Of a stretch of DNA of 64,000 nt, positions 52,025 through 59,023 are shown one piece after another. The translations under genes were made by a program, and so were the position numbers. Source of the stretch: Thalassospiraceae bacterium LMO-JJ14 (GTDB lineage Bacteria > Pseudomonadota > Alphaproteobacteria > Rhodospirillales > Casp-alpha2); the NCBI GenBank assembly GCA_021555105.2, contig CP134604.1, positions 1,240,001 to 1,304,000 on the forward strand, read 5' to 3'. The notes below the pieces were generated by a model. That model worked only from the letters and a program-made list of their open reading frames with translations, had not been told where the DNA came from and did not search any database. Position 1 is the first letter of the stretch; each line of letters begins with the position of its first letter.

Positions 52025-52687
52025 GTGAGTGAATACAAAGATTGGATGTTGCGCGGGCCCAAAATCGGCGGGTGTAGTTGCGATTACGGGTGTCCGTGCG
52101 AGTTTAACGGCCGCCCCACGAACGGCGATTGTGAAGGCATGGAAGCCATGCGGATCGACGAGGGCTATTTTGAAGACGTTCGTTTGGATGGACTTGTCTT
52201 CGCCGTACGGTTCCGTTGGCCTGGTGCCGTTCATGAAGGTGGCGGCACGGCGCAGGCTTTTGTCGATGAACGTGCAACGGAGGCACAAGTCGATGCCTTG
52301 TTCAAAATTCTAAGCGGCGAGGAACAGGAACCGACCACGGTCTTCAATATCTATGGTTCGACGATAGAAACCGAACTCGATCCGGTTTTTACGGCCATTG
52401 AATTCGCGTGCGATATCGAAAACGCAACTGGATCTTTTAGCGTACCTAAGGTTATGGATTTCGAACTCGAGCCGATCAAGAACCCGGTCACCGGGGAAGA
52501 TCACCGTGCGCAGATCAACCTCAAGACATCGTTTGAGTTCAAGGTCGGCGAAATGGCCAGCGCAACGATCAAGTCCCCCGGTCCGGAGATGCCGATGGAT
52601 TGGGAAAAGGTTTACGGTGTGCTGTGCCACGTGACTTACGGTCCGTATGGCATCATCAAGGATCATCTTTTTGAAACAGCGGCGTAA
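52025..52687 (+). CDS. DUF1326 domain-containing protein
   Basis: A 220-residue soluble protein starting with a cysteine-rich segment, KIGGCSCDYGCPCEFNGRPT then NGDC. This is the mark of DUF1326 and a plausible metal-binding site. The remainder is beta-rich (FRWPGAVHEGGGTAQAFVDE, IEFACDIENATGSFSVPKVM). The start is GTG 52025, fixed by AGGAGGG at 52013-52019. It is the first gene of a long plus-strand run and pairs with DUF2182, 11 bp downstream. DUF1326-DUF2182 is a recurrent pair of unknown function, suspected to handle metal. A CRP-type palindrome lies upstream. Confidence 0.9.
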   Translation: MSEYKDWMLRGPKIGGCSCDYGCPCEFNGRPTNGDCEGMEAMRIDEGYFEDVRLDGLVFAVRFRWPGAVHEGGGTAQAFVDERATEAQVDALFKILSGEEQEPTTVFNIYGSTIETELDPVFTAIEFACDIENATGSFSVPKVMDFELEPIKNPVTGEDHRAQINLKTSFEFKVGEMASATIKSPGPEMPMDWEKVYGVLCHVTYGPYGIIKDHLFETAA

Positions 52688-52698
52688 GGCTAAGGCCG

Positions 52699-53484
52699 AT
52701 GCTAGCCGGTTTGTTTTCAAGAATACTGCGTAAGGACCGCCAGATGGCGGTCCTTGTCCTTGCGCCTGTCTGCATCATTGCCTGGACCTATACCGCGCTC
52801 GGTGTCGGCATGAACATGACGGCTATCGACATGACGGGTATGGCCAGCGACATGGCGATGCCGCCGACTGCGTGGACGCCGATGAACAGTGCGCTGATGT
52901 TTGCCATGTGGTGGGTGATGATGGTGGCGATGATGCTGCCTTCAGCGGCGCCCATGCTTTTTCTGTACCAGCGTGTGGTCGCAAGGCGCAACCGTGATCG
53001 CGCGCTGGGTGATATGACGGTATTCGCCCTTGGCTATCTTGTGACCTGGGGCGGTTTCAGCCTCGCTGCGACGGGATTACACGCCGCAGGGGAACTGAGC
53101 GGCTGGGTTAATGGCATGATGGCGTCTTCCTCGCACCTGCTGAATGCCGTGCTCCTGATCGGGGCCGGGGGCTGGCAGTTGACCCCGGTTAAAAATCGTT
53201 GTCTTGAAGCTTGCCGTACCCCCGTGGTGTTCCTTAGCAGAATCTGGCGCCCGGGCGCCGGGGGGGCGTTTCGGATGGGCATTGTGCATGGGGTGTTCTG
53301 TGTCGGTTGTTGCTGGGCGATGATGCTTCTGCTGTTCGTCGGCGGGGTAATGAACCTTTACTGGATCGGCGGCCTTGCGCTGTTTGCATTGGCAGAGAAA
53401 CTCACGCCAGGTTGGCCCTTGTTCGACCGGTTGACAGGCGGTGCGCTGATCCTTTCTGGGATGGCCGTACTGGTTCTTGGATAG
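52699..53484 (+). CDS. DUF2182 domain-containing membrane protein
   Basis: A 261-residue protein with about six helices. It has the characteristic methionine-rich M-W-x-V-M-M-V-A-M-M-L-P motif as FAMWWVMMVAMMLPSAAPML, preceded by a histidine-free Met-rich loop. The C-terminal GIVHGVFCVGCCWAMMLLLF holds the second family motif, with cysteines and methionines. These suggest metal (copper-type) binding in the membrane. It follows DUF1326 by 11 bp. The opening LAPVCIIAWTYTALGVGMNM is a transmembrane helix. No transport mechanism is established. Confidence 0.9.
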   Translation: MLAGLFSRILRKDRQMAVLVLAPVCIIAWTYTALGVGMNMTAIDMTGMASDMAMPPTAWTPMNSALMFAMWWVMMVAMMLPSAAPMLFLYQRVVARRNRDRALGDMTVFALGYLVTWGGFSLAATGLHAAGELSGWVNGMMASSSHLLNAVLLIGAGGWQLTPVKNRCLEACRTPVVFLSRIWRPGAGGAFRMGIVHGVFCVGCCWAMMLLLFVGGVMNLYWIGGLALFALAEKLTPGWPLFDRLTGGALILSGMAVLVLG

Positions 53485-53532: not shown

Positions 53533-55311
53533 ATGGCCGAAGGCAACGTAAACAGTGTGGAATTGAGCAGCGGCGCACGCTTCGGTGTGGCGCCAGGTGA
53601 TGCGCACAGCCATCTGGAACTGTTGGCCGATATGGGCCGCGATTTCGCGACCAGCCTCGATCTGGAAGCAACACTGGCGCGTGCCGTACAACGCATCACG
53701 GACTATGTCGATGCCGAGGCCGGTGCGTTGTTCATGCTGTCCCCGTCTGGGGAAAAACTGCTCTGCGATGCCTGCGTCGGGCCGGTGGAAATCACCGGTC
53801 TGGAGATTGCTGCCGATCAGGGGATCGTCGGGTTCTGCGTGCAGAACGACAGCGGACGCATCGTCCGCGATGTCGCCAAAGATCCCGATTTTAATGCCTC
53901 GGTCGACGACGAAACGGGCTTCAAGACAAAGTCGATCCTGTGCGCGCCGATGAGCGTCAAGGGCGAGCAGATCGGCGCCATCGAGTTGATCAACAAACGC
54001 GGCGGCGACGGCCTTTTTGACGATAATGACCTGCACCTGCTGCAGGCGCTTTCCGTTTCAGCCGGGCTGGCAGTTCTCAACGCCCGTATGGCGGCGGCGC
54101 TGGTCGAACAGGAACGGGTCAAGCGGGAACTCGAACTGGCCGCCGAAATTCAGCGCTCATTGCTGCCGGAAGAAAAAGATTCGGACTTTCCGGTCAAGGG
54201 CATCAATTTGCCGGCCCGTGTCGTTTCCGGCGATTTTTACGATTTTTATCCCCTCGATGACGGGCGGGTCGCGTTCACCCTCGGCGATGTGTCGGGTAAG
54301 GGGATGAACGCAGCGCTGATGATGGCGAAAACCGCAAGCTTGCTTCGTTGTCTCGGAAAATCAATCAAGGAACCGGGCAGGCTCCTGACGCTCGTGAACG
54401 AGGAAATATGCGAAACCGCGACGCGCGGCATGTTCGTGACACTTGTGCATGGCGTTTACGATCCGGACAGCGGTTATGTACGGCTGGCCAATGCCGGGCA
54501 CGAACCGCCGCTGATTTACGGCGCCGACGGCAGTTTTCGCGCCATCGAAGCGGAAGCGCCGCCATTGGGGATATCGCCCGCACTCCTCGACGAGGATGGG
54601 TTTCCCGAAACGGAACTGAACCTGAATGGCGGCCAACTGTTCGTTTTCACCGATGGCGTCACAGAGGGTTATATCGCCGATGGCGTCGAGCTTGGCGCGG
54701 ATGGCCTGAAAGAACTCATTGCCAATGCCGGCACGGGCGGCGTGCAGGGTATTTTGAACCAGGTACGTGAAAAGATCGGCGGGACAGGTGAAGCGCTCCG
54801 TGACGATGTAACTTTGCTCGCTATCGACGATGGCACGGCCAAACATACATCGGGGGTGGCGCTTGGCGCTGCGGAACCCGGTGCTACGGACGCGCCCGGC
54901 GAGAAAATTTTCCAACTCCGTGTCACGGCCAAGGCCAACCGCCTTCGTCTGATCCGCAATGCTGTCCGTGAGACGGCATCGTTCTGCGGATTTTCCGAAG
55001 CCGATACACGCGATATCGTGCTGGCGGTGGATGAAGCCTGCCAAAACGTCATTCGTCATGCCTATGGCCACGAAGGCGAGGGGGATATAGCTATAGAGAT
55101 CCGGCACCGTCCGGATGCGATGGTTCTTTTCCTTCGCGACTTTGCCGATCCGGTGGATATTTCCAAAATCAAGCCGCGCGATCTGGACGATTTGCGTCCG
55201 GGCGGGCTGGGGACGCATCTCATCAGCGAAGTAATGGATGAGGTAGACTTCTTGCCGCCGCCGATAGATGGCGGCAATCTATTGAGAATGGTTAAAAGAA
55301 TCGGGGATTAG
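53533..55311 (+). CDS. GAF-PP2C(SpoIIE)-HATPase protein: fused phosphatase and RsbW-like kinase
   Basis: A 592-residue soluble signalling protein. GAF domain at about residues 30-180 (SLDLEATLARAVQRITDYVD). Helical linker at 190-215 (VKRELELAAEIQRSLLP). PP2C-type SpoIIE phosphatase domain at about 220-425, with metal-binding aspartates in GDFYDFYPLDDG (about 233), GDVSGKGMN (about 251) and FVFTDGVTEGY (about 372). HATPase_c domain of the RsbW/SpoIIAB type at about 460-590, with N-box DEACQNVIRHAYG (about 497) and G-box PGGLGTHLISEVMDEV. Such a protein could both phosphorylate and dephosphorylate a STAS partner, here the gene 6 bp downstream. ATG 53533 matches the family start. Confidence 0.93.
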   Translation: MAEGNVNSVELSSGARFGVAPGDAHSHLELLADMGRDFATSLDLEATLARAVQRITDYVDAEAGALFMLSPSGEKLLCDACVGPVEITGLEIAADQGIVGFCVQNDSGRIVRDVAKDPDFNASVDDETGFKTKSILCAPMSVKGEQIGAIELINKRGGDGLFDDNDLHLLQALSVSAGLAVLNARMAAALVEQERVKRELELAAEIQRSLLPEEKDSDFPVKGINLPARVVSGDFYDFYPLDDGRVAFTLGDVSGKGMNAALMMAKTASLLRCLGKSIKEPGRLLTLVNEEICETATRGMFVTLVHGVYDPDSGYVRLANAGHEPPLIYGADGSFRAIEAEAPPLGISPALLDEDGFPETELNLNGGQLFVFTDGVTEGYIADGVELGADGLKELIANAGTGGVQGILNQVREKIGGTGEALRDDVTLLAIDDGTAKHTSGVALGAAEPGATDAPGEKIFQLRVTAKANRLRLIRNAVRETASFCGFSEADTRDIVLAVDEACQNVIRHAYGHEGEGDIAIEIRHRPDAMVLFLRDFADPVDISKIKPRDLDDLRPGGLGTHLISEVMDEVDFLPPPIDGGNLLRMVKRIGD

Positions 55312-55317
55312 GGACCA

Positions 55318-55650
55318 ATGGAGCATCAATTATCCGAATCCGGCGGCGCGTTAGTCATCGCGTTTGCTGGCGATATCGATCTGCAGACTTCTCCGGATGC
55401 CCGAAAGGCTCTGTTGGCGCTGGTCGGCAAAGGACAACCAATTCTGGTCGACCTGTCGGGTGTCGGTTACATCGACTCATCTGGCGTGGCATCGCTTGTC
55501 GAGTGCCTCCAAAGCGTCAAGAAGTCGGGACAGAAACTGGCCCTCGTGTCGGTCAGCGAAGGGGCGCTTCGGGTGCTGCAACTGGCACGTCTGGACAGGG
55601 TCTTTACGATCTGCGCCAGTGTGGATGAAGGTATTATCGCGGTGGCGTGA
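55318..55650 (+). CDS. STAS domain protein (RsbV-like anti-sigma antagonist or MlaB-like subunit)
   Basis: A 110-residue STAS protein: GDIDLQTSPDARKALLALV, then VDLSGVGYIDSSGVASLVEC, with D53-S54-S55-G56 at the site where SpoIIAA/RsbV is phosphorylated. It is therefore equipped to be phosphorylated by a kinase such as the HATPase domain encoded just upstream. It also precedes mlaE, where the STAS subunit MlaB might be expected, and could bind the MlaF ATPase. The gap to the kinase/phosphatase gene is only 6 bp. Which of the two roles applies is undecided. Confidence 0.93.
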   Translation: MEHQLSESGGALVIAFAGDIDLQTSPDARKALLALVGKGQPILVDLSGVGYIDSSGVASLVECLQSVKKSGQKLALVSVSEGALRVLQLARLDRVFTICASVDEGIIAVA

Positions 55651-55693
55651 AAAATCTTCCCGGTCACGGCCGGGAGAGACGGGGGACGACGAC

Positions 55694-56503
55694 TTGGCGG
55701 GGCAAAAGATTACCGCAGTGGAAAAGATCGAAGGGATCGGCAGGACGGCCGTGGCCTTTGTCGAATCTGTCGGTAACGGCGGCATCCTCGTCGCCGAGAG
55801 CTTTTACTGGCTGCTGTTCGGTGTTCGTGAACGCCAACCGGTTCGCATGGGTGCGGTAATCCAGCAGATGATGGAAATCGGCGTTGCGGCAATACCGATC
55901 ATTCTGATGCTGACCGGCACCATCGGTGTCATGCTCGCCATTCAGGGCATTCATACGCTCAGGATATTCGGCGCTGAAAGCCGGGTGACCATCGGCATTG
56001 CATTTTCCGTGGTGCGCGAATTCGCCCCGCTGATAACCGGCATTCTGGTCGCCGGACGTTCCGGTTCCGCGCTGGCGGCGAGAATCGGGACCATGAAGAT
56101 CAACCAGGAAATCGATGCCCTCAAGGTCATGGGCATTAACCCGACGCGGTTTCTTGTTGTCCCGGCCTTGGTGTCGATGCTGGTCATGGTCCCTGCATTG
56201 ACGCTTCTTGGCAATTTCATGGGACTTTTCGCCGCCGGACTTTATGTAAATGCGGACCTCGGTATTTCGCTCGCGGCCTATGCCCATGACACCATCGATA
56301 TCCTGTCGCTGGACGACCTCGGTCACGGTATCGGTAAGAGCTGTATTTTTGCCGTGCTGATTGCCGTCATCGGTGTCGTCAACGGGGCCGGTGTGCAGGG
56401 CGGTGCCGAAGGGGTGGGCAAGGCAACGACCCGTTCCGTGGTGCAGTCGATTTCGGCGATCATCGTCACCGACATGCTGTTTGCCTTCGTGGCGACGCGG
56501 TAG
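55694..56503 (+). CDS. mlaE: MlaE-family lipid ABC transporter permease
   Basis: A permease of about 269 residues with five hydrophobic segments, starting with an interfacial helix (FVESVGNGGILVAESFYWLL). The conserved core is LTGTIGVMLAIQGIHTLRIF, and the coupling region is GRSGSALAARIGTMKINQEI then DALKVMGINP. This is the MlaE/TrbI family, partner of MCE proteins that move phospholipid between membranes. The start is probably TTG 55694 with GGGGGA seven bases upstream; GTG 55718 is an alternative. It follows the STAS gene by 43 bp and precedes mlaF by 9 bp. Confidence 0.92.
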   Translation: MAGQKITAVEKIEGIGRTAVAFVESVGNGGILVAESFYWLLFGVRERQPVRMGAVIQQMMEIGVAAIPIILMLTGTIGVMLAIQGIHTLRIFGAESRVTIGIAFSVVREFAPLITGILVAGRSGSALAARIGTMKINQEIDALKVMGINPTRFLVVPALVSMLVMVPALTLLGNFMGLFAAGLYVNADLGISLAAYAHDTIDILSLDDLGHGIGKSCIFAVLIAVIGVVNGAGVQGGAEGVGKATTRSVVQSISAIIVTDMLFAFVATR

Positions 56504-56512
56504 GACCGGATC

Positions 56513-57382
56513 ATGCGCAACCCGCAAAGCATCATGGAAGAACGCAAATCCCGCCAGCGTCCGCCGAGCGGACCCGAGGCGGTGATCGAAGTTGAGAATC
56601 TGGTCACGCATTATGGCGAGCGGATGATCCTCAAGGGCGTCAGCATGCAGGTCCTGGAAAACGAGATCATGGTCATCATGGGTGGCTCGGGATCGGGGAA
56701 ATCGACGCTCCTTCGCCATCTGATGGCGCTCGAGGAGAAGACATCAGGCAACATGCGGATTCTCGGCAAGGATATTGACCAGATCACACGGCAGGAATTT
56801 CTCGATGTGCGGAAGAAGCTGGGCGTGGCGTTTCAGTCCGGCGCACTTTTCAGCTCAATGACGGTCGGCGAAAACATCATGCTGCCGCTCTATGAGCACA
56901 CCGATCTGGACGCTCTGACCATGGAAATCATGGCCCGCATGAAGCTGGAGGTGGTCGAACTCTCCGGCTTCGAGAATCTGATGCCGTCCGAGCTGTCCGG
57001 CGGCATGATCAAGCGCGCTGCATTTGCCCGCGCGATCGTCATGGATCCAAAAGTGCTGTTCTGTGACGAGCCGTCGGCCGGGCTCGATCCGGTCGTGGCG
57101 TCGGCGCTGGACGACCTGATCCTCGACATGCGCGACGCCATGGGCATGAGTATCGTCGTCGTAACCCACGAACTGGACAGCGCATTCAAGATTGCGGACC
57201 GCATCACGATCCTCGATCGCGGCGAAATCCTGATGATCGGCACGGTCGAAGAAGTGCTGGCTTCGAAATCCGATCGTGTGCAGGCACTTTTGAACCGCAT
57301 CCCCGAAGAAGACACCATGGACCCGGATGACTACCTCAGCCGCCTTGTCGGCGAGAACAACCCGGGCACGGCGCATTTATGA
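56513..57382 (+). CDS. mlaF: MlaF-family lipid ABC transporter ATP-binding protein
   Basis: A 289-residue ATPase. Walker A is GGSGSGKST (about residue 59), Q-loop AFQSGALFSSMTVGENIM, signature LSGGMIKRAAFARAIVMDP, Walker B and D-loop LFCDEPSAGLDPVVASALDD, and switch histidine VVVTHELD. It powers the MlaE permease. An N-terminal extension of about 25 residues before the ABC core (MRNPQSIMEERKSRQRPPSG) is unusual for MlaF, and the C-terminus is long. In E. coli MlaB (STAS) docks on MlaF. The corresponding surface here may contact the STAS protein encoded two genes upstream. Confidence 0.95.
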   Translation: MRNPQSIMEERKSRQRPPSGPEAVIEVENLVTHYGERMILKGVSMQVLENEIMVIMGGSGSGKSTLLRHLMALEEKTSGNMRILGKDIDQITRQEFLDVRKKLGVAFQSGALFSSMTVGENIMLPLYEHTDLDALTMEIMARMKLEVVELSGFENLMPSELSGGMIKRAAFARAIVMDPKVLFCDEPSAGLDPVVASALDDLILDMRDAMGMSIVVVTHELDSAFKIADRITILDRGEILMIGTVEEVLASKSDRVQALLNRIPEEDTMDPDDYLSRLVGENNPGTAHL

Positions 57383-57392
57383 GGACGGACAC

Positions 57393-58397
57393 GTGAGAAC
57401 AAGCAAGATCAACTACTTCATCGTCGGGCTGTTTGTGATCACCATGATCATAGCGCTGGTCGCGGCGGTCGCTTTGCTGACGGGGCGAACCGGTGCAACG
57501 GACAGCTATCATGCTTATTATTCGAATGTGACCGGGGTTAAATTCGGCACCCAGGTGGTTTACGAAGGCTATCCCATAGGTCAGGTCACCGAGGTGACGC
57601 CGGAAGAAAAAGACGGCCGCATGCGTTTCCGGGTCGATTTTGATGTTGTCGAAGGATGGCGGATTCCGAACGACAGTATTGTCGAAATAGCAGCGCCCGG
57701 TCTGCTGGCCGCCGTTACCCTTGCCGTAGAAGCGGGTAAAAGCACGACCGCGCTTGAACCGGGCGCCGAGGTGAGTGCCGTTGAGCGAGCTGACATGTTT
57801 GCCGCCGTCGCCAATGTCGCAGGGGACTTCGGCGATTTGTCGAACAACTATCTGAAGCCGTTGCTCAGGAACGTCGACAACACGGTGACGCAGATCGGCG
57901 AGTTTCTGCAGGTCGGGGGCGAAGGCCGCATGATTGCCGCCGATGCCCGCGATACCATGGGCATGGCGCGCAACATCATGTCGGACCTCAAGGACCGCAT
58001 ACCATCGATCGCCGAAAAGCTTGAAACGATCCTGACCGACGTCAGTGTCACCAGCAAACGCCTGAATGACATTCTGACGCCGCAGAATCAGCAGAAAATT
58101 CTCGGCATGATCGACAATCTAAATGCGGCGACGCAGAAATTCGATACCGTGCTGATCACCATGAATTCCATCCTCAAGGATATCGACGATCTGGTGCTCG
58201 ATGATGAGGGTGATCTGGCCAAAACCATGAAGGAAAGCCGCTACATCGCCGAGTCGATTGCGCGCAATATCGATGCCATCAATCAGAACATGGATGGTGC
58301 GGCCAGAAACCTGTATGAGTTCAGCCGGCAAATCAGGCAGAACCCGGGATTGTTGCTGGGCGGATCGTCCCCTGAAGACAAAGGAACGGTACAATGA
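57393..58397 (+). CDS. mlaD: MlaD-like MCE-domain protein, long C-terminal helix form
   Basis: A 334-residue protein: one N-terminal anchor (INYFIVGLFVITMIIALVAA), one MCE domain at about residues 35-130 (SYHAYYSNVTGVKFGTQVVY, then EGYPIGQVTEVTP), and then about 200 residues of helix-rich sequence (for example IMSDLKDRIPSIAEKLETIL). This is nearly twice the length of E. coli MlaD (183 residues) and suggests a needle or stalk extension into the periplasm. The start is GTG 57393 with GAGGA seven bases upstream; the longer open frame from 57327 overlaps mlaF. It overlaps the lipoprotein gene by 4 bp. Confidence 0.9.
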   Translation: MRTSKINYFIVGLFVITMIIALVAAVALLTGRTGATDSYHAYYSNVTGVKFGTQVVYEGYPIGQVTEVTPEEKDGRMRFRVDFDVVEGWRIPNDSIVEIAAPGLLAAVTLAVEAGKSTTALEPGAEVSAVERADMFAAVANVAGDFGDLSNNYLKPLLRNVDNTVTQIGEFLQVGGEGRMIAADARDTMGMARNIMSDLKDRIPSIAEKLETILTDVSVTSKRLNDILTPQNQQKILGMIDNLNAATQKFDTVLITMNSILKDIDDLVLDDEGDLAKTMKESRYIAESIARNIDAINQNMDGAARNLYEFSRQIRQNPGLLLGGSSPEDKGTVQ

Positions 58398-59023
58398 TGC
58401 AAGCAAACGTGAAACCGGTCCGAAAAATCATGCCGATGGCGTCGCTGATTTTCGCCGCTGTCCTGCTGGTTGCCGGCTGCGCTTCGCAGCCGCCGGTGCC
58501 GACCGACAAGTATTACCGTCTGCAGGCGGTCCTGGCCGCAGCGCCGGCTTCCACCCCCAGGTTCCAGGGTAATTTCCAGGTTGAACGATTCACCGCCGAT
58601 GGCCTGACGGCGGGGCGGCCGATCGTCTATGTCGAATCCAATGACGGGAACCAGCTTCTTGAATATCACTATCACTTCTGGACACAGCCGCCGACGGTCA
58701 TGTTGCGTGATGAGCTGGTGACGTATCTGCGCGCATCGAAGATTGCCGAGAGTGTTGTGACGCCGGATATGCGCCTGGATCCGCAGTATGTAATGACGGG
58801 GCGTATTCGCAAACTGGAACAGGTGCTCGGCTCGCCGAACCGCACGCGTCTGGAACTGGAAATAGCGTTGCGTCAAACCGACAACAACAAGCTGATGTTC
58901 CTGAAGTCCTATTTACATGAAAGCAACCAGACGTCGCCCGGTGTTTCTTCCGCTGTCGATGCGCTGAACGAGGCCTTGAATATTATCTATTCCGATCTTC
59001 TGGCCGACCTTCGGTCCCTATGA
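58394..59023 (+). CDS. ABC-type transport auxiliary lipoprotein (PqiC/DUF330-like)
   Basis: A 209-residue lipoprotein with signal and lipobox in SLIFAAVLLVAGCASQPPVP. The mature domain shows YYRLQAVLAAAPASTPRFQG and IVYVESNDGNQLLEYHYHFW, matching the ABC-type transport auxiliary lipoprotein family (PqiC/YmbA). Such lipoproteins sit at the outer membrane and receive substrate from MCE tunnels. The operon thus pairs an Mla-type core with a Pqi-type outer-membrane partner, and no mlaC is present. It overlaps mlaD and the methyltransferase by 4 bp each. Confidence 0.9.
   Translation: MMQANVKPVRKIMPMASLIFAAVLLVAGCASQPPVPTDKYYRLQAVLAAAPASTPRFQGNFQVERFTADGLTAGRPIVYVESNDGNQLLEYHYHFWTQPPTVMLRDELVTYLRASKIAESVVTPDMRLDPQYVMTGRIRKLEQVLGSPNRTRLELEIALRQTDNNKLMFLKSYLHESNQTSPGVSSAVDALNEALNIIYSDLLADLRSL

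Follow-up and report, generated by a model that had tools for sequence, protein, structure and literature searches.

A candidate partner-switching module encoded with an MCE-type lipid transporter in Thalassospiraceae bacterium LMO-JJ14 and other bacteria

Six genes, all on the forward strand, occupy positions 53533-59023 of the window, by which we mean the whole 64,000-nucleotide stretch of Thalassospiraceae bacterium LMO-JJ14 that was analysed (CP134604.1, positions 1,240,001 to 1,304,000). They encode a GAF-SpoIIE-RsbW-like protein, a free STAS protein and an MCE transporter consisting of MlaE, MlaF, a long MlaD and a PqiC-like protein, with the following features:

53533..55311, + strand: GAF-SpoIIE(PP2C)-HATPase protein P0001, 592 aa (Pfam scan; catalytic residues kept in 72-76 homologues)
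53659..54075, + strand: GAF domain, residues 43-181, with an NK-x6-F-x3-D motif (PF01590, E 4e-15)
54226..54825, + strand: SpoIIE/PP2C phosphatase domain, residues 232-431 (PF07228, E 2.5e-41)
54925..55296, + strand: RsbW/SpoIIAB-like kinase domain (HATPase_c_2), residues 465-588 (PF13581, E 4.3e-25)
55318..55650, + strand: RsbV-like STAS protein, 110 aa, predicted MlaF partner and kinase substrate (TIGR00377, 78.5 bits; PF01740)
55474..55485, + strand: putative phosphosite motif D53-S54-S55-G56 (alignment of STAS homologues and MlaB)
55694..56503, + strand: MlaE-type permease, 269 aa, STAS domain not fused (PF02405, E 2.3e-66)
56513..57382, + strand: MlaF-type ATPase, 289 aa (profile models; best structural matches are Mla ATPases)
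57275..57379, + strand: MlaF C-terminal extension (CTE), handshake-type helix, D-P-D-D-Y274-L-S-R-L278 (comparison of MlaF groups)
57393..58397, + strand: MlaD-type MCE protein, 334 aa, with a long C-terminal region (PF02470, E 2.5e-11)
58394..59023, + strand: PqiC-like outer-membrane lipoprotein (ABC_trans_aux), MpcA-like (PF03886, E 6.5e-08)

An earlier, sequence-only reading had described a 592-residue protein with GAF, SpoIIE and RsbW-like domains lying 6 bp before a STAS gene with the D53-S54-S55-G56 motif, and followed at tight spacing by mlaE, mlaF, a long mlaD and a PqiC-like gene, and this description is borne out in every part. The GAF, SpoIIE (Pfam match at residues 242-431) and HATPase_c_2 domains each exceed their Pfam cut-offs; P0001 stops at 55311 and the STAS gene begins with an ATG at 55318, leaving the 6-bp gap; the motif is present in the 110-aa translation; and the remaining genes follow at 43 bp (STAS-mlaE), 9 bp (mlaE-mlaF) and 10 bp (mlaF-mlaD), with a 4-bp overlap between mlaD and the lipoprotein gene. 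The likeliest start of mlaE, judging by alignment, is TTG 55694. The ATG at 57327 that the ORF caller assigned to mlaD overlaps mlaF, and GTG 57393 is favoured when the protein is aligned with its relatives. With MlaE, MlaF and an MCE-domain protein encoded in one locus (PF02405, MlaF models, PF02470), the transporter is of the MlaFEDB/Mpc type.

The residues on which a phosphatase and a kinase of this kind depend are conserved in P0001. The aspartates of the PP2C metal ligands (D234, D252, D374, D424/D425) are invariant across the homologue alignment, the kinase retains E501 (75/76) and N505 (75/75) of its N-box, D536 (76/76), and G558 and G560 of the GxG at 558-560, and the top structural matches of the kinase domain are RsbW/SpoIIAB. 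Together with the D-S/T-x-G motif of the STAS protein, the elements by which partner switching in RsbUVW/SpoIIA is recognised, the kinase N-box and G boxes and the PP2C ligands, are all intact. The best PDB matches of the GAF domain are cGMP phosphodiesterase GAF domains, and its motif residues are largely kept among homologues (N154 in 69/74, K155 in 65/74, F162 in 66/72, D166 in 69/72); it is probably a sensor of a small ligand of cyclic-nucleotide type. A family search of the genome found no second RsbW-like kinase.

The STAS protein has an anti-anti-sigma-like profile, scoring above the TIGR00377 cut-off, and at 110 aa it is longer than the 97 aa of MlaB. The D-S-S sequence is present in all 75 STAS homologues and DSSG in 74, and S54 aligns with T52 of E. 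coli MlaB, where the motif is V-D51-T52. The protein scores only 25.5 bits against the NCBIfam MlaB model NF033618, for which the cut-off is 90, and is not a member of the curated MlaB family, although it may nevertheless work in an MlaB-like manner. A separate canonical mlaB elsewhere, which had been named beforehand as the finding that would tell against a dual role for this protein, is not present in the genome: searches with PF13466 and PF01740 matched only the operon STAS and a 647-aa frame resembling the tail of a SulP transporter, leaving neither an mlaB nor a further free STAS protein.

Evidence for contact between the STAS protein and the transporter comes from MlaF. In E. coli a C-terminal 'handshake' helix of MlaF docks at MlaB (PMC7367683), and the equivalent CTE helix is kept in 61 of 66 switch-linked MlaF proteins, compared with none of 30 STAS-less paralogues, among them the MlaF of a second, STAS-less MlaE/MlaF pair in this genome, and none of 10 MlaF proteins beside an MlaE-fused STAS domain. 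This count omits one locus (L227), at which the ABC ATPase, with 29% identity, is not the linked MlaF; the helix is shortened in three linked MlaFs (L220, L226, L228). Within the genome, the only MlaF with a CTE of the MlaB-docking type shares an operon with the only free STAS protein. The placement of the STAS protein was modelled with AlphaFold read-through chimeras, in which PAE was estimated from pTM rather than read off directly. The STAS-MlaF chimera gave a pTM of 0.59, with 264 of 652 residues at pLDDT <50, a value which by explicit estimate requires the STAS protein to be placed within ~3-6 A PAE; this indirect readout clearly implies a STAS protein placed on MlaF. The kinase-STAS chimera (pTM 0.70) is only suggestive, and implies a placement on the kinase with moderate clarity. 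Helix and chimera thus offer positive, if indirect, indications that the STAS protein would bind MlaF.

The synteny survey that the sequence-only reading had called for found kinase, STAS and mlaE in this order at 72 loci, with all six genes present at 59. In the record of Magnetospirillum sp. UT-4 (L113), a cultivable relative with the locus, the genes for phosphatase, kinase, STAS and mlaE follow one another. Since these 72 loci contain 69 distinct STAS sequences, the linkage is more than chance. The loci are spread through many families of the order Rhodospirillales, other Alphaproteobacteria and gammaproteobacterial assemblies, and a recent local insertion can be rejected as the source of the linkage because the same gene order occurs in another class at ~40% identity of the phosphatase-kinase. 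In a class-wide sample of 386 genomes, the switch and the transporter tend to occur together (Fisher p ~2e-18, without correction for phylogeny): of the 14 genomes that have this MlaE subfamily, 13 also have a P0001 homologue, compared with 7 of the 372 that lack it. The linkage is near-obligate: 13 of 15 relatives that lack P0001 also lack this MlaE, and the remaining two are incomplete genomes with contigs ending near the 5' genes of the operon. The exceptions run in both directions, since one genome has lost the transporter but retains switch and STAS (G054), another retains them beside a truncated transporter (G055), a third has a related switch amid pilus genes and no MCE gene (G441), and a fourth has the transporter and no local switch (G520). 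Two candidate loci were set aside, one from Clostridia (L116) with a weak match to SpoIIE only, the other (L212) with mlaE but no mlaF within 9 kb, which we take to be a mis-assembly or decay.

The locus combines features seen separately in several characterised systems. Rv1364c of M. tuberculosis has a role in sigma-factor control and is not known to us to be linked with MCE genes in an operon. It resembles P0001 in joining an RsbU-like phosphatase and an RsbW-like kinase in a single chain (PDB 3ke6). HsbR of Pseudomonas and CrsR of Shewanella likewise combine a PP2C domain with an RsbW-like kinase in a single protein and act on STAS targets (HsbA, CrsA), but their input is a response regulator, whereas P0001 has a GAF domain in place of the receiver domain, and what they control is RpoS, FlgM and a diguanylate cyclase rather than a transporter (PMC6482189). 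In SiaABCD of Pseudomonas, a phosphatase-kinase-STAS cycle acts on an enzyme from its own operon and not on a sigma factor; however, that effector is a diguanylate cyclase, and phosphatase and kinase are separate proteins (PMC7647112). On the transporter side, the Brucella abortus MpcEFDA operon also encodes an MlaE-type permease, an MlaF-type ATPase, a long MCE protein and a PqiC-like lipoprotein, and its complex includes a STAS domain, but this is an N-terminal fusion on MpcE, whereas here it is a separate gene beside a 269-aa MlaE, and we came across no description of a kinase or phosphatase accompanying Mpc (PMC12436622). The MlaE-fused STAS domains that we sampled mostly have threonine (D-T-x-G), and the adjoining MlaFs lack the CTE helix. 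E. coli MlaFEDB shares the free STAS protein, MlaB docking on the helical subdomain and CTE of MlaF, and the hydroxyl residue, T52 standing at the position of S54, but MlaB is a minimal STAS protein of 97 aa without a known kinase or phosphatase (PMC7367683, PMC5016091), and the E. coli genes are ordered F-E-D-C-B, with MlaC present and no PqiC-like protein.

In proposing a function for this arrangement, we consider that a partner-switching module with an ABC lipid transporter as its effector is the best explanation, with a probability of roughly three in four. Under this model, unphosphorylated STAS would dock on MlaF in the way that E. coli MlaB does, and the MlaFE(D) complex would then be assembled and active. 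Phosphorylation of Ser54 would fall to the C-terminal HATPase domain of P0001; since this residue is predicted to lie at the centre of the face that contacts MlaF, phosphorylated STAS would leave MlaF and transport would stop. Such a sign is in keeping with the weaker MlaF binding of the phosphomimetic MlaB T52E (PMC7367683); the E. coli work did not settle if and by what means this residue becomes phosphorylated. The central PP2C domain would strip the phosphate and restore transport, and the GAF domain, as a probable cyclic-nucleotide-type sensor, would set the balance between the two activities. The transporter itself would be a trans-envelope, Mpc-like machine of MlaE, MlaF, long MlaD and a PqiC-like outer-membrane anchor. 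That the STAS protein might be both kinase substrate and MlaF partner, and so gate lipid transport, had been put forward from the sequence; the linkage, the lack of an mlaB and of a second kinase, the CTE and the chimera pTM values all speak for it. Binding and phosphorylation, together with the direction of the effect and the nature of the signal, are what we infer. Against the model stand the low MlaB score, the exceptions to the linkage, the three shortened CTEs and the behaviour of MlaB T52A in E. coli, discussed below. The most complete version, in which a cyclic-nucleotide-type GAF signal acts through the phosphatase-kinase and STAS on both the assembly and the activity of a lipid ABC transporter that spans the envelope, making this the first ABC-transporter partner switch and supplying the enzymes missing for an MlaB-type phosphosite, is a tentative proposal to which we give somewhat less than even odds.

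The target of the switch might instead be a sigma factor, a diguanylate cyclase or some other regulator, the position of the switch genes in the operon reflecting co-expression only. The closest characterised fused PP2C-kinases, HsbR and CrsR, interact with RpoS (PMC6482189), HsbA also promotes a diguanylate cyclase (PMC7647112), the STAS profile here is of the anti-anti-sigma kind, and the persistence of the switch after transporter loss in G054 and the related module among the pilus genes of G441 point the same way. We consider this unlikely, however, since the switch is linked to this transporter subfamily in two classes and the two are absent together, the genome's sole free STAS protein shares an operon with its sole MlaF that has a docking helix of this type, and no sigma-factor gene is seen either within the operon or directly next to it.

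RsbW-type kinases bind their STAS partners tightly, and it is conceivable that the kinase mainly sequesters the STAS protein, with phosphate playing a minor part, or that STAS is a constitutive, MlaB-like structural subunit whose stability or stoichiometry the enzymes tune. Assembly in E. coli does require MlaB, without which MlaF fails to join MlaE (PMC5016091). An invariant D-S-S and conserved catalytic residues in both enzymes across 69 distinct STAS sequences nevertheless indicate that turnover matters, and we give this account little credence. It is very improbable that the STAS protein serves the second MlaE/MlaF pair, instead of or besides the adjoining one; that pair has no STAS of its own, but none of the 30 sampled MlaFs of this kind, its own among them, has the docking helix, and genomes without the switch still keep the pair.

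If the partner-switching model is correct, partner switching reaches membrane transport, beyond sigma factors and cyclases, and MCE systems gain a post-translational on/off control. The comparative evidence suggests that a reversible phosphate tag may switch lipid traffic between membranes on and off in many bacteria. Two structural and biochemical studies of E. coli MlaB proposed phosphorylation of T52 as a possible control of lipid transport, with kinase and phosphatase not identified, and one of them treated the regulation of active MlaB as an open question (PMC5016091, PMC7367683). In dozens of lineages the transporter genes are accompanied by those for a dedicated kinase, phosphatase and sensor, and so the idea of MlaB phosphorylation becomes testable with a few purified proteins. 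In E. coli, T52 must do more than carry a phosphate, since the complex assembles with MlaB T52A yet has no ATPase activity (PMC5016091).

The operon lies in a genome assembled as a single contig of 3.89 Mb; among named assemblies, those closest to it belong to Rhodospirillales. The sequence-only reading described its gene content and layout correctly, minor start-codon questions aside, and gaps within the six genes do not exceed 43 bp:

First gene of window 53533-59023, + strand: P0001, a GAF-SpoIIE-HATPase (phosphatase-kinase) protein of 592 aa
Starting 6 bp after P0001, + strand: STAS protein, 110 aa
Thereafter, all + strand: MlaE, MlaF, a long MlaD and a PqiC-like lipoprotein

Directly 5' of the operon (window 52025-53484) are a DUF1326 gene and then a gene for a PpoB2 (copper chaperone) membrane protein, a pair kept only in some close relatives. 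At the other end, the PqiC-like gene overlaps an rlmD-like rRNA/tRNA uracil methyltransferase gene by 4 bp (window 59020-59023), and since the two are adjacent in several relatives as well, the transcript may continue into the latter.

The principal observation is that this phosphatase-kinase switch and this transporter travel together. P0001 has matches (E<=0.001, any domain) in 56 of 61 relatives, with near-full-length orthologues in most, and the order kinase-STAS-MlaE-MlaF-MlaD-PqiC is repeated across the fetched loci. The survey of synteny that had been proposed found kinase, STAS and mlaE in order on one strand at 72 loci (a few being one assembly reached by two routes and counted twice; one, in G055, having a truncated mlaE), with 69 distinct STAS sequences among them. 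All six genes occur in 59 loci and contig ends interrupt several more; flanking genes vary, and so the conserved unit is the six-gene block. Across the class, 386 genomes were sampled; this MlaE subfamily occurs in 14 of them, the source genome not counted, and in 12 of the 14 a P0001 homologue is encoded no more than 2 kb upstream in the same direction; in the other two, the homologue is about 3 kb away in facing orientation (G260) or the MlaE locus is interrupted at a contig start (G354). Co-occurrence is strong (Fisher p ~2e-18, a statistic that ignores relatedness). Among 15 relatives without P0001, 13 also lack the switch-linked MlaE subfamily, most retaining just a second MlaE, ~33% identical; the remaining two are genomes 67-71% complete with contigs ending close upstream, one of which still shows the STAS gene.

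Residues needed for such a switch are retained. Across about 75 sequences, the PP2C metal ligands (D234, D252, D374, D424/D425) and kinase E501, N505, D536 and G box show little or no variation, and the STAS motif reads D-S-S in 75/75 and D-S-S-G in 74/75. Structural matches are RsbW/SpoIIAB for the kinase domain and RsbV/TM1442 for STAS. The proposed phosphosite S54, first Ser of the motif, is equivalent to SpoIIAA S58. Aligned with the E. coli sequence from NC_000913, it falls at MlaB T52; in MlaE proteins with a fused STAS domain, taken from 10 genomes, D-T-x-G predominates at this position. The best structural relatives of the GAF domain, by sequence, are those of cGMP phosphodiesterases, and an NK-x6-F-x3-D motif is conserved, which makes a cyclic nucleotide a reasonable guess for the ligand.

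In E. coli, a C-terminal helix of MlaF (Y261, L265, L266) lies at the MlaF-MlaB interface (PMC7367683). Switch-linked MlaFs have a comparable extension ending in D-x-D/E-x-Y-L-x-R-L, strictly so in 61 of 66, the other five being near-matches (L214, L216) or shortened (L220, L226, L228); the pattern is absent from all 30 STAS-less MlaF paralogues and from all 10 MlaFs beside fused STAS-MlaE. In the MlaE tree these three types cluster by kind, the switch-linked node being weakly supported under the rooting used; the correlation of helix with switch is an association of clades rather than of many independent events.

MlaF and MlaE do not associate without MlaB in E. coli, and MlaB T52A preserves assembly while abolishing ATPase activity (PMC5016091), so the hydroxyl itself matters. 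T52E lowers MlaF binding, and its authors called MlaB phosphorylation an "intriguing possibility" and regarded how active MlaB is controlled as unsettled (PMC7367683). Together with the operon's content, these data suggest a model in which STAS phosphorylated by the kinase would dissociate from MlaF, turning transport off, dephosphorylation by the PP2C domain would turn it back on, and GAF would tune the balance. AlphaFold predictions used read-through chimeras, single chains in place of two-chain complexes. For kinase-STAS from the window, with TAG translated as Q, pLDDT was 92.6 and pTM 0.70, which implies moderate predicted placement of STAS on the kinase. In a chimera of STAS, an unrelated linker and MlaF (L218; pTM 0.59), 264 of the 652 residues were disordered, the STAS and MlaF parts were confident and the C-terminal helix formed; by a simple estimate, 0.59 requires a STAS-MlaF placement error of a few angstroms, against an undocked expectation of ~0.40-0.50.

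Profile searches of the source genome found no mlaB, a separate canonical copy of which had been named as grounds for rejecting the idea. There is one free STAS, the other match lying inside a 647-aa frame for an apparent SulP-type transporter, and one RsbW-like kinase, other HATPase matches being far lower-scoring, histidine-kinase-like and in longer frames. A second MlaE/MlaF pair (L008 5735-7295; genome ~1855734-1857294) adjoins an alr-like gene, with no STAS, mlaD or mlaB alongside and no C-terminal helix on its MlaF. A 692-aa membrane PP2C protein (L009 5929-8007; genome ~628928-631006) has neither STAS nor RsbW-like kinase encoded close by and might also dephosphorylate the operon STAS.

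That the switch acts on something other than the transporter we consider improbable given its linkage, though it has precedents: the fused PP2C-kinase proteins HsbR and CrsR regulate RpoS (PMC6482189), and cyclases can be partner-switch targets (PMC7647112). In its favour, G054 has the switch and no transporter, and pilus-linked switch modules occur in G441 and G260. Comparative evidence favours a STAS switch that would gate the lipid transporter, as originally proposed. Both modules are known, and what is new is that they are joined, the probable effector being an ABC transporter; a literature search of partial coverage found no paper describing an MCE operon with a GAF-PP2C-kinase/STAS switch.

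Several loci depart from the common arrangement. In two other Alphaproteobacteria (L214 3466-5873, L229 3372-5615), STAS, GAF-PP2C and kinase genes sit amid type IV pilus-like genes (pilD, pilT, pilin), facing an MCE operon in L214 and with none in L229; such modules may have targets other than the transporter. Two genomes (L086, L084) retain switch and STAS while the transporter genes are gone or reduced to stubs, possibly through recent decay or retargeting. Conversely, G520 has an MCE operon (L210 1599-3214; MlaE 66% identical, MlaF helix intact) with no adjoining switch or STAS; a free STAS is found on another contig (L239), close to a weak match to P0001. Gammaproteobacterial assemblies (L114, L115) also have the locus; there a gene of its own encodes the kinase, and in L114 (2674-3924) the phosphatase bears HDOD in place of GAF; judged from domain content, sensor input is exchanged across classes while output is constant. 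Finally, STAS genes are duplicated in tandem between kinase and mlaE in L219 (1291-2006) and L225 (3825-4540), both copies being D-S-S-G.
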